Shown here: positions 912 to 42,292 of the stretch, piece after piece
Layout: every line of letters begins with the position of its first letter
Numbering within the stretch: position 1 is the stretch's first letter
DNA from: a virus
DNA: 43,112 bases
Strand: one strand, 5' to 3'
Virus record (IMG/VR): IMGVR_UViG_3300021410_000001
Span: 1 to 43,112 of that record
Notes under the pieces: generated by a model
Database searches by the model: none
Seen by the model: the letters and a program-made list of their open reading frames with translations, nothing else
Told to the model about the DNA's origin: nothing
Translations under genes and position numbers: made by a program

Positions 912-1117
912 AGTAGTTCTCTGGCCTCCCCGGCCGTAAGGGGGCGATTCATCCTCGACCGCGTAAAAACCGAGGCGCTTGTTCCGTCGAGAGAATAACG
1001 GAGCCGGAGCGCGTCAGTTCGCTGCTGACCCCGTAAGCGGCCGCTGTGCCATCCGAGCGCGGTCCCGACAGCAAGGGACGCCGGAAAACGTAACCGGCGC
1101 ACATTCGAGGAGGCGGC
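912..1117 (+). other. Hairpin-rich non-coding segment
   Basis: All three forward frames contain stops and no convincing gene is present. The stretch is rich in inverted repeats: CTCGAC (954-959) with GTCGAG (986-991); GTCAG (1013-1017) with CTGAC (1025-1029); GTCCC (1062-1066) with GGGAC (1075-1079); CGCCGG (1079-1084) with CCGGCG (1094-1099). GTAA recurs in loop-like positions. It ends at the ribosome-binding site of the next gene (GAGGAGG). It may be a structured RNA in the late transcript, a packaging element or a regulatory leader. I cannot assign it to a known RNA family. Confidence 0.45.
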
Positions 1118-36566: not shown

Positions 36567-36983
36567 TTATGCGAATGCGACAGTGCGTCCGGGCGGACCG
36601 CCTGCGGGGGAGGTGACATTGCGCATGCACCGGCTGTACTCGGTGAATGTACGGCTGCGGCGCTGGGATTTTGGGCGCGTGAAATCCTGATCGATTTCAA
36701 TGGCGGCGATAAAGCAAAGCAGTACGCACAGCGCCTGTGGAATGAGTACGCCCAGGGTAAACCCCCGGGTGATCATGTGAACCTTGTTCTTTGCCGCAAG
36801 CTTGCCTTGAATGGATCGCTCGATTTGCAACAGCCCCAGGGTTTCTATCTGCATGCGTTCAGCGATCACGGGCGAGGGAACACCCTCGGCCAGGCTGACC
36901 AGCACAAGCAATTCGTTATCAGTCAGATTCTGGCCGGGCAGGCCTATCACTTCTTCGCCTTGGATTTGGGCGCGAGCGTTCAA
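36567..36983 (-). CDS. LuxR-type HTH protein with membrane segment
   Basis: 138 aa from minus-strand TTG 36983, preceded by AAGGA. NLTDNELLVLVSLAEGVPSPVIAERMQIETLGLLQIERSIQGKL is a LuxR/GerE-type HTH, followed by a hydrophobic segment (VLIPQALCVLLCFIAAIEI). Similar short HTH-plus-membrane proteins are common in Pseudomonas phages. It might be a membrane-linked regulator. An alternative ATG-start upstream frame would add unrelated residues. Confidence 0.7.
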   Translation of the reverse strand: MNARAQIQGEEVIGLPGQNLTDNELLVLVSLAEGVPSPVIAERMQIETLGLLQIERSIQGKLAAKNKVHMITRGFTLGVLIPQALCVLLCFIAAIEIDQDFTRPKSQRRSRTFTEYSRCMRNVTSPAGGPPGRTVAFA

Positions 36984-37012
36984 TGGGGCGCTTCCTTGCG
37001 AGGGGGAGGGGG

Positions 37013-37264
37013 TTATTCTTGAGAGGCGATAGAAAGGCCCAGTGTGTCCAGATGCTTTCGCATCACGGTGGCCAAGGCCAAGATGCTGTCGATGTGTTCG
37101 AGGTCTGCATGCCCTTCGTTGATGCAGAGCTGTGAGATACCTTGAATGCCTGCGCATAGCCCGTTGACTTCAACGACAGCTTGAAACAGCACCGCCTGTT
37201 TGGCCTTGGTGATGCTGACTACATTCGAATTCTGTTGAACCGCCAAATTGCTACCTTGCTGCAT
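37013..37264 (-). CDS. Unknown 83-aa protein next to CI
   Basis: Minus-strand ATG 37264. Helical product (SITKAKQAVLFQAVVEVNGLCAGIQGISQLCINEGHADLEHIDSILALATVMRKHL). It resembles small Pseudomonas proteins of unknown function. Located between the LuxR-like and CI-like genes, its promoter region contains a CI-like operator (37299-37313). Confidence 0.65.
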   Translation of the reverse strand: MQQGSNLAVQQNSNVVSITKAKQAVLFQAVVEVNGLCAGIQGISQLCINEGHADLEHIDSILALATVMRKHLDTLGLSIASQE

Positions 37265-39707: not shown

Positions 39708-40127
39708 ATGGCACGCCGCAAAAGTAACAACCGACTGGATTCGGCCTTGGAACTGTGGGCCGCATGGAACATGCCCGACAGCGCTCACGCCACGGGCAAG
39801 AGCATGTTGGCCAAGCTGATCGACAACAAAGGCGAAATCCTGTTCGGCGGATCGGGGCCGGTGAGCGGTCCAGCAGACGGCTTGGAAAGCGATATCGAGG
39901 CGGCGGTTCTGGCGATGTTTTCAGAGAGCCCGATGCGGGCCGACGTGCTGCGGCTGGAGTACGGCGCGGCCTATTGGCAGGTGGCTGCTCGACGGGGCAT
40001 TTCCGGCTACGACTGGCGCGGTGGCCAATACGAAAAATCACAAGCGCTCGGCATCAGCCTGCGCACCTATCGCAGCCGTCTGGCCGAGGCGCGAAACACC
40101 ATATCGACGTTACTGGGGGTCGAGTGA
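39708..40127 (+). CDS. Q: Antitermination protein Q-like
   Basis: 139 aa from ATG 39708. The C-terminal half (VLRLEYGAAYWQVAARRGISGYDWRGGQYEKSQALGISLRTYRSRLAEARNTI) matches the Q-like late antiterminator pattern with an HTH (KSQALGISLRTYRSRLAEA). It would let polymerase from the 42860 promoter pass the terminator before the holin and read the whole late block. The next gene overlaps its stop (GTGA). Confidence 0.75.
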   Translation: MARRKSNNRLDSALELWAAWNMPDSAHATGKSMLAKLIDNKGEILFGGSGPVSGPADGLESDIEAAVLAMFSESPMRADVLRLEYGAAYWQVAARRGISGYDWRGGQYEKSQALGISLRTYRSRLAEARNTISTLLGVE

Positions 40128-40959: not shown

Positions 40960-41017
40960 ACTCAATTTATCCAATCATCAGGCCTTGGCGTGTCCGAGTG
41001 TCTGTGAGTGCCTGCCC

Positions 41018-42292
41018 ATGCAAAGAATGACCCTGCGCATTGCGCTATCAGACGCGGCCATCAAAAAGCACGCGGCCGATCCAGACGTGTTCGAAATCAA
41101 CGACCCCCGACATCCGCTGCGCTTTCGCTATCGAGCGGATCGAGCGCGTGGTAGCTGGCACATCGTTATTTACGCCGATGGCGAGCAGAAATGGCGCAAG
41201 GCGGCGAACTGGCCGGACGTGCCCGCCAAAACCATGATCGACAGCCTGCCGGGGGTGCTGGCTCGGCTGATGACCGACCCGGATGCGCTGGCGACCGTGG
41301 ACGGTTGGGAAACCGTAGGCCAGGCATTGCGCTGGTACGCCGGACGGCTCAAGACCGACAACAGCCTGTCGCCGTCGCGGCGCTCATCTTCGGCCTCTGC
41401 GATCAAGCGTCAGTTGCTGCCTGCCATCGGCGACCTGCACCTGAACAAACTCAATCGGGACACCTTGGACCGCCACCTGATCCAACACATGCAGGCGGAA
41501 TACAGCCTGTCCTATATCAAGTCGGTGCTGGATGTGTTGCGGGTGGTGTTCGGCACGGCGCTGACCTTGGGCAAGATCACAGCTAATCCTATGGCCGGTG
41601 TGACGTTCGGCAACTTCACCAAAGCGAAGATCCGGCCCAAGGGTGCCCGCTTGCGCCATGTGGCCGTGGTGGATCTGCTGGACGGCTGGGCAGATGCCTT
41701 TGCGGACGATCCGGCTGCGGTGGCCCTGATGCTGCTGATGCTGACCCATGCAACGCGCATCACCGAAACCCGCCTGGCTCAGTGGAAGAATTTTCATCTG
41801 GAGGCGGGCGAATGGTTCATTCCGGCCCGCGACACGAAATCCAAGCGCGACCATCTGTTGCCCTTGACCCCGCAGGATGTGGCCTTTCTGAAACGCTATC
41901 GGGATGAACAGAAGGCAAGGGGGTACGTCGGGGCCTATCTGTTCCCGTCCAGCACGCGCGCCGGGCGGCCCATGTCCAGAAGTCAGGCCTTTGCCATATT
42001 CACCCGTTACGGGGCCGGGGAATGGTCAAGTCATGACCTGCGCAAACTCGCGCCGTCGATCTGGGCCAAGCTGGGCGTCGATTCGCTGGTTGGCAAGCTG
42101 CTGCTTAACCATTCGCTGACCGAACTGGAAAGCACCTACTTCCAAGCCCTGGGCGAAACGGTCAAGCGCAGCGCCCTTGAGCGCTGGCATGGCTGGCTCG
42201 ATGCACAGGGCTTTAGTGCGTTGCACGACAAGACCACGCCAAGACAGGCGCAAAAGCCGGTTGCCGTGGACCCCGCAGGCTGGCTGGTCTAG
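41018..42292 (+). CDS. int: Tyrosine recombinase (integrase/resolvase)
   Basis: 424 aa from ATG 41018; upstream in-frame TTG 40985 adds residues of poor coding character. The catalytic set is visible: Arg247 (THATRITETRLAQW), Lys near 274 (TKSKRDHLLPL), His339 and Arg342 (SSHDLRK), His365 (LLNHSLTE) and Tyr374 (STYFQ). An N-terminal core-binding domain precedes. No tRNA-like attP is visible next to it. With Rep and Par present it could integrate the prophage or resolve multimers. No excisionase-like gene is recognised. Confidence 0.92.
   Translation: MQRMTLRIALSDAAIKKHAADPDVFEINDPRHPLRFRYRADRARGSWHIVIYADGEQKWRKAANWPDVPAKTMIDSLPGVLARLMTDPDALATVDGWETVGQALRWYAGRLKTDNSLSPSRRSSSASAIKRQLLPAIGDLHLNKLNRDTLDRHLIQHMQAEYSLSYIKSVLDVLRVVFGTALTLGKITANPMAGVTFGNFTKAKIRPKGARLRHVAVVDLLDGWADAFADDPAAVALMLLMLTHATRITETRLAQWKNFHLEAGEWFIPARDTKSKRDHLLPLTPQDVAFLKRYRDEQKARGYVGAYLFPSSTRAGRPMSRSQAFAIFTRYGAGEWSSHDLRKLAPSIWAKLGVDSLVGKLLLNHSLTELESTYFQALGETVKRSALERWHGWLDAQGFSALHDKTTPRQAQKPVAVDPAGWLV

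Follow-up and report, generated by a model that had tools for sequence, protein, structure and literature searches.

A conserved folded RNA in a gene gap of a lambda-type phage and the recurrence of its 3′ module at many phage loci

The window is the whole 43,112-nucleotide stretch analysed here (IMG/VR virus record IMGVR_UViG_3300021410_000001), and its source is a lambda-type temperate phage whose large terminase subunit is 62% identical to Pseudomonas aeruginosa phage counterparts. From left to right the genes are ordered as holin, small ORFs, the element described here, a Z-like gene, Nu1 and terminase, with the integrase gene (40985–42292) near the opposite end of the record. The holin (27–353; PF05106) is followed by a small ORF (472–828), the 5′ flank of a gap about 200 bases wide inside a densely packed gene block, and an unannotated 27-codon ORF can be read from the sequence at 828–911, with its stop at 909–911. 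To the right, outside the RNA, is the plus-strand gene for a Z-like minor tail protein (1118–1840), which the first-pass annotation had recognized and which matches phrog_1924 (E = 1.2e-73); it is followed by Nu1 (1965–2528) and then TerL. The ribosome-binding site proposed to close the gap is present as GAGGAGG (1107–1113) ahead of the ATG at 1118. No protein families were found between the ORF at 472–828 and the Z-like gene. Although ORFs overlapping the gap exist on both strands, they are not credible because single-base insertions and deletions separate relatives inside the stretch, and the description of the gap as non-coding stands. Elsewhere in the window are a 139-residue ORF close to where a Q-type antiterminator would be expected (39708–40127; phrog_5285, function unknown) and a gene matching phrog_3282 (LuxR/sigma-like; 36567–37157). 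We also note a GC-rich palindromic stretch, cccgggccccacgggcctaggggg, at 1891–1920 between Z and Nu1, the expected cos position.

The element proper spans approximately 923–1098 (about 180 nt) on the plus strand, with a mini-ORF (908–916) just 5′ of it. Four stem-loops with GTAA in their loops had been described; comparison supports six hairpins, P1–P6 (P1 and P2 by eye only), together with a likely pseudoknot, and GTAA occurs in three of the loops (P1, P2 and P6) and also in the linker that follows P4. P1 (928–944) pairs CCCC (928–931) with GGGG (941–944) around the loop GGCCGTAAG. Among 12 window-type copies read by eye, and outside the pair counts below, P1 is CCCC/GGGG in seven (the window and six relatives) and TCTC/GAGA in five (L082, L102, L101, L091 and L183), with the loop GGCCG conserved. 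P2, also by eye, pairs CCTC (953–956) with GAGG (972–975) around a loop containing CGCGTAAA; relatives have CCCTC/GAGGG, ACCGG/CCGGT or CCAGC/GCTGG, and in L082, L091, L101 and L102 it is longer and different. P3 has outer (976–979 with 1008–1011) and inner (981–987 with 998–1004) parts around the loop CGAGAGAATA (988–997) and is followed by CCGGAG; this loop and CCGGAG[CT]GCG served as a search pattern, and their constancy is partly ascertained. P4 pairs GTCAG (1013–1017) with CTGAC (1025–1029) and is followed by CCCCGTAAGC. The 3′ module (1059–1098) comprises P5 (1062–1066 with 1075–1079), P6 (1080–1084 with 1094–1098) and the likely pseudoknot, between GCG (1059–1061) and CGT (1089–1091); all of these features are on the plus strand.

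Unusual folding stability gives no signal, either in the window (−83.7 versus −80.5 ± 4.0 kcal/mol, z −0.80, with 37 of 200 shuffles as good) or in the E. coli leader described below (z −0.59), and the structured RNA is accepted because of covariation. In alignment A4 (18 sequences), 12 of 25 pairs are changed on both sides, with 63 such cells compared with 22.8 in shuffled alignments; further pair types are not raised (22 versus 22.6, with 399 of 500 shuffles as high). Alignment A6 (26 sequences), which was fitted to the covariance model and so leans towards it, has 105 both-side-changed cells compared with 30.3, a covariation score of 0.414 compared with 0.133 (slid partners give at most 0.081), and 13 pairs with double change compared with 10.4 (18 of 500 shuffles as high). 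For the 3′ module alone (34 sequences) the corresponding values are 44 cells compared with 10.9, and four pairs compared with 2.6 (30 of 500). In all of these counts the shuffles leave relatedness in place. The signal is carried by P3, where the inner pairs are changed on both sides at six of seven positions in A6 and five of seven in A4, by P4, where 98.4% of A6 cells are paired and three of five pairs are changed on both sides, and by P5; P6 is almost invariant, a constancy ascertained by the search patterns. G-U pairs, such as those at pair 2 of the P3 extension in 10 of the 26 sequences, are kept on one strand, and the plus strand is therefore taken as the RNA. The covariation check proposed in the first-pass annotation has thus returned strong covariation, and this and the strandedness of the G-U pairs bear out its reading of the gap as a structured RNA or cis-regulator. 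On these comparisons the element is almost certainly a real, conserved, structured RNA of the plus strand.

At the 5′ side of this RNA is the mini-ORF. In the window a Shine-Dalgarno-like G-rich stretch (897–901) precedes TTG-AAG-TAG (908–916) on the plus strand, as read from the sequence; the TTG overlaps the stop of the 27-codon ORF, and this is the weakest copy in the family. A purine-rich, Shine-Dalgarno-like sequence followed by a two- to three-codon ORF is present 56–81 nt before the P3 core in all 27 complete copies, where 0.83 would be expected from mononucleotide shuffles under a broad definition of the Shine-Dalgarno sequence, the members being related and not 27 independent events. 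The start is ATG in 26 copies and TTG in the window, and all 27 stop at UAA or UAG. Fifteen copies encode MK and three MKR, with MKL, MEN, MV, MKQ, MQK, MKK, MWK, MKE and the window's LK seen once each. As length is conserved here and codon identity is not, initiation and termination at the mini-ORF seem to matter more than its peptide.

A search with the Z protein gave 59 viral loci, and at two of these (L003 and L004) the element is 87.2% and 92.2% identical to that of the window; the corresponding figures are 79.6% and 69.3% for Z, and 52.4% and 50.8% for the 300 bases upstream, the level of unrelated DNA. None of 61 Z-relative loci besides these two has the module (best score 16.8 bits; several have little upstream DNA). 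One of the two closest Z loci, L002, with an 85% identical Z protein, lacks the element, and the stop of its small ORF directly abuts the Z ribosome-binding site; in L065 a related small ORF is followed by the element and then Z. Because L065 has and L002 lacks a copy before Z, this is presence or absence of the element at one place. In the window, L003, L004 and L065 its 3′ end is 19–29 nt before the Z start codon.

Exact patterns run against viral contigs gave L065, then L082 and L083, and then 22 loci in one scan; two of the 22 (L088 and L098) fall in coding sequence and are read as chance matches to the pattern, as are L084–L086. A covariance model of the core (R1), built from 18 sequences, found eight copies outside its training set at 84.8–106 bits, three of them in genomes; the window, which helped to build R1, scores 108.7 bits, with a full-length match and the Shine-Dalgarno-like sequence and mini-ORF. 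There are 29 long-RNA copies including the window, with 25 further copies in viral contigs and three among 398 genomes from G166's family; we take this family to be Pseudomonadaceae because G166 has a PrrF match. Two of the 29 copies (L094 and L103) are truncated at their start by the edge of the retrieved locus and 27 are complete; L089, L093, L096 and L099 are near-duplicates. There is one strong match per record in all 21 records searched whole, some of which are fragments, and a second long copy sought in these 21 was not found. BLAST of the window element and the L004 copy against 50,697 phage records, of two relatives' elements against phage records, and of the window element against 72,556 plasmids gave no match, nor did the element against 369 genomes of the class of G001, a search without a positive control. 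Against the 398 genomes of the G166 family there were nine weak BLAST matches of at most 42 bases each; the best, inside a coding sequence that is asparaginase-like by eye, is read as a chance match. As a separate observation, L090 encodes a protein, presumably CsrA-like, a short way 5′ of the element, at −331 to −152 relative to the P3 loop.

The last 40 nt of the element are far more widespread. Scanning with the pattern CGCCGGAN{0,3}ACGTAACCGG gave at least 80 loci, 76 of them new, among the matches listed. A second model (R2), built from these 40 nt with the help of 22 of the 76, matches at 33.9 bits or more in 66 of the 76 new loci among the matches listed; in the window, which also helped to build it, the sole R2 match at E ≤ 1 is at 1058–1099 (40.5 bits). 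The consensus reads ACG, P5 (3–9 bp of any sequence), GCCGGA, N0-3, ACGUAA, CCGGC, A; the sequence of P5 is free to change yet stays paired. At least four different 5′ domains are seen by eye upstream of the module. R2 also gave no match in these 369 genomes of G001's class, but under strict filters and without a positive control, and the result carries little weight. We note that L137 has two modules (1869–1906 and 2245–2281), one ending a full R1 element and the other following a different 5′ domain. A further recurring piece, (GUUGUGGU)GAAUGYGCAGGCUGAUGCGC-like and sometimes followed by GCCGGAGAUCAGCACCGGCCACCAC, is upstream of the module in L139, L184, L144 and L159 and downstream of the element in L089.

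The ACG before P5 (GCG in the window) is able to pair with CGU in the P6 loop. A sequence-by-sequence reading of 77 loci, a selection comprising 59 of the 76 new loci listed and 18 others, finds all three pseudoknot pairs in 69 and two in eight, with ACG/CGU in 54, GCG/CGU in 14 and ACU/AGU in one. Loci were dropped from the 76 as near-duplicates (L155, L165, L172, L179, L196, L199 and L207) or for a low or absent R2 score (L141, L142, L145, L156, L157, L167, L169, L174, L191 and L197), and the 77 retain the near-duplicates L158/L250, L180/L194, L139/L184/L205 and L135/L198. On the model-fitted A6 the pseudoknot is paired in only 64%, which we put down to slips in the register of P5. The pseudoknot is likely, and it is the least certain helix of the predicted fold because both-side changes are few (L090, L100, L131 and L137).

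The module also reaches E. coli, where its L158 form is present in 469 of 5426 complete genomes; the eight E. coli matches listed have no annotated feature underneath. In E. coli SA186 it is in a leader of about 1 kb that has no annotated genes and separates a repressor-like gene from a left operon that ends at the integrase. In the E. coli prophage a Q gene is annotated, an N-type antiterminator is not annotated, and there is one module copy in 49.5 kb. The only matches given by BLAST of the L180 leader against phages were to two Stenotrophomonas phages, in sequence that does not include the module. The homologous leader of Stenotrophomonas phage BUCT709 is identical at 708 of 839 aligned positions (1093 columns with gaps) and has two small hypothetical genes annotated, and the module is replaced by a single hairpin, GCCGG-GAAAGA-CCGGC. 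By eye, both leaders have a terminator-like hairpin, differing in sequence, upstream of the module point. The leader is itself of note: over about 1 kb the E. coli prophage (L252:42030–43060) and Stenotrophomonas phage (L253:2890–3790) versions are 84% identical over aligned positions, with GGAAAGAC in the loops of many hairpins; by appearance it is a separate, large structured RNA.

The genes that follow the module are varied. The first or second downstream ORF encodes a holin (L205), an endolysin (L203), an exonuclease (L180), DnaB (L204), a primase (L181), a LuxR/sigma-like protein (L089), Rz (L083) or, in the window, Z. By a simple longest-ORF rule, which is not reliable for GC-rich DNA, downstream genes at the 77 loci are on the same strand as the module in 64, opposite in nine and undecided in four, and upstream genes in 39, 30 and eight, respectively. 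The first-pass description of a late RNA fits the window and its nearest relatives; other copies are in an apparent early operon, as in L089-type phages, where the long RNA precedes the LuxR/sigma-like gene (phrog_3282) whereas the window copy is in the late operon, and in L095, where it follows a repressor-like ORF.

Because the element heads very different operons, mostly in one orientation, we favour a cis-acting RNA that alters transcription of the operon, namely RNA-only antitermination in the manner of HK022 put and without sequence similarity to it; by analogy this is a tentative reading, to which we give somewhat less than an even chance. The element would be transcribed as part of the late transcript, and a ribosome starting just upstream and stopping after two to three codons would leave the ~180 nt that follow available for folding into P1–P6. 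The last ~40 nt would form a compact unit in which P5 abuts P6 and ACG (GCG in the window) pairs with the CGU of the P6 loop. The folded RNA may then act in cis on the transcription complex from which it has emerged, with RNA polymerase the probable target, such that pauses and terminators of the long following operon would be ignored. The comparisons themselves show conservation, covariation, the mini-ORF and a mostly co-directional place in front of genes; transcription, action in cis and the polymerase target are inferences. Terminator-like hairpins 33–112 nt past the module in six of the 77 loci, and 99–238 nt ahead of it in six, would suit antitermination. It is disfavoured by the lack of a downstream terminator excess (by a crude density, 0.226/kb on the plus strand compared with 0.271–0.385/kb elsewhere), by minus-strand hits within 150 nt downstream in nine loci versus six for the plus strand, by the absence of a terminator-like sequence between the window copy and Z, by the single copy per record, by the mini-ORF, which this model leaves unexplained, and by the homologous Stenotrophomonas leader without the module. 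It may also be unnecessary, because the window has the small ORF near the Q place (39708–40127). A broader version, which we consider doubtful, is that temperate phages, apparently those of the Pseudomonadota, have their operons steered by a broad and so far unnamed class of RNA-only regulators, in which the 40-nt pseudoknot module replaces protein antiterminators and is joined to different 5′ domains: the ribosome-loading mini-ORF of two to three codons in the Pseudomonas type and the ornate leader of about 1 kb in the E. coli type. On that version the mini-ORF would make this the first RNA antiterminator to be licensed by immediate initiation and termination of a ribosome.

Proximity to tRNA genes raises a second reading, somewhat unlikely in our estimate, in which the element governs mRNA or tRNA processing or stability: it would serve as a protected end, as a site recognized by a nuclease or as a self-cleaving ribozyme of a kind not yet described, setting the RNA upstream apart from the gene or tRNA behind it. 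ARAGORN, run on 60 loci, places a same-strand tRNA gene 4–5 nt after the module in five (L171, L198, L135, L164 and L193, with L135 and L198 near-duplicates) and 70 nt after it in L189, giving six of 60 within 100 nt downstream; T-arm-like sequences number 10 in 53.9 kb near modules compared with nine in 1557 kb elsewhere. Several modules end 10–31 nt before a start codon, but many copies are 100–300 nt or more from the next ORF, and no Rfam ribozyme match was found in the window or 22 other loci scanned.

A trans-acting small RNA embedded in operons, with the mini-ORF or loops pairing with host or phage RNAs or binding a protein and its position setting the timing of expression, is unlikely. 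The single strong copy in each whole-searched record would suit such an RNA, as would its early-type place in some phages and late place in others, and terminator-like hairpins follow the module by 33–112 nt in six of the 77 loci (L134, L138 and L148 being one shared sequence). The co-directional downstream genes in 64 of 73 decided loci argue against this reading, as does the window copy, which has no terminator-like sequence between it and Z and no sigma-70-type promoter match in 1–2600.

We consider it quite unlikely that the element is a translational leader, in which initiation and immediate stopping at the mini-ORF would gate the downstream gene through refolding of P1–P6. The mini-ORF in 27 of 27 members, with only UAA or UAG as stops, and the short distance to Z at its four loci are consistent with this, but the downstream genes are unrelated and often distant, and no such ATG mini-ORF is found within 320 nt at the equivalent place in module loci outside the R1 family. 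A DNA-level site (a packaging site, a recombination boundary or a mobile repeat) is very improbable: presence or absence between related small ORFs and Z (L065 and L002) would suit it, but G-U pairs are kept on one strand, the mini-ORF and its Shine-Dalgarno-like sequence are conserved, orientation is preferred and there is no fixed place relative to terminase, and the packaging element once suggested for the gap is not supported, given its absence from L002 despite the 85% identical Z protein and the same RNA before Rz and the LuxR/sigma-like gene, with other copies away from terminase.

Control of phage operons is usually ascribed to proteins such as N and Q, and here apparently empty phage DNA encodes a folded RNA that mostly heads gene blocks and probably controls their reading. 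A widespread RNA-only device, if true, would alter the annotation of phage operons and provide a 40-nt part for transcription control. Through the conserved two- to three-codon ORF, what minigenes do in phage RNA becomes open to direct test.

The element is a previously unlisted folded RNA family, common in pieces to many phages. In agreement with the earlier statement that no known RNA family was recognized, cmscan with Rfam 15 gave no match in the window at the gathering score or in 850–1150 at E ≤ 10, and none in eight relatives; 14 further module loci gave two tmRNA models (L175) and one tRNA (L164), none over the module. The tmRNA gene of L175 (10584–10874) is a permuted one on a viral contig. 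A search of the open literature (5.39 million papers, mostly without subscription papers) for the module sequence and related topics found no description. GOLLD and ROOL RNAs have a phage link and often a tRNA nearby. They resemble the element as structured noncoding RNAs of bacteria and phages; they differ in that the element has no Rfam match and in the size of the window RNA (~180 nt), but the E. coli/Stenotrophomonas leader reaches ~1 kb. The lambda bar minigenes are two-codon ORFs with a ribosome-binding site in phage RNA; to our knowledge they are not attached to a conserved folded RNA, and here the mini-ORF codons vary (MK, MV, MKQ, MKR, MWK, MEN and others). The helix order of the module, as we understand it, does not fit the HDV fold. 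Theta ribozymes are described as HDV-like small phage RNAs linked to tRNAs (PMC10879173). By comparison, the module has a tRNA within 100 nt downstream at only six of 60 loci scanned and no Rfam match.

The closest comparison is with put of phage HK022, for which RNA-only, protein-independent antitermination via binding of the zinc domain of the RNA polymerase beta′ subunit is described, with one put copy on each early operon (PMC9378689). The likeness lies in two abutting hairpins (here P5 and P6) in a phage operon leader with no protein partner visible, and in the E. coli prophage copy (L250), which sits about where putL sits. A search of the HK022 genome with R2 gave nothing at E ≤ 1, and HK022 read for GTAACC has no module. 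The element differs from put in its loop-to-upstream pseudoknot and its long 5′ domain with a mini-ORF, and put is on each early operon whereas here there is one strong copy per record. Unlike the put leaders, the element and its module also head late operons and tRNAs.
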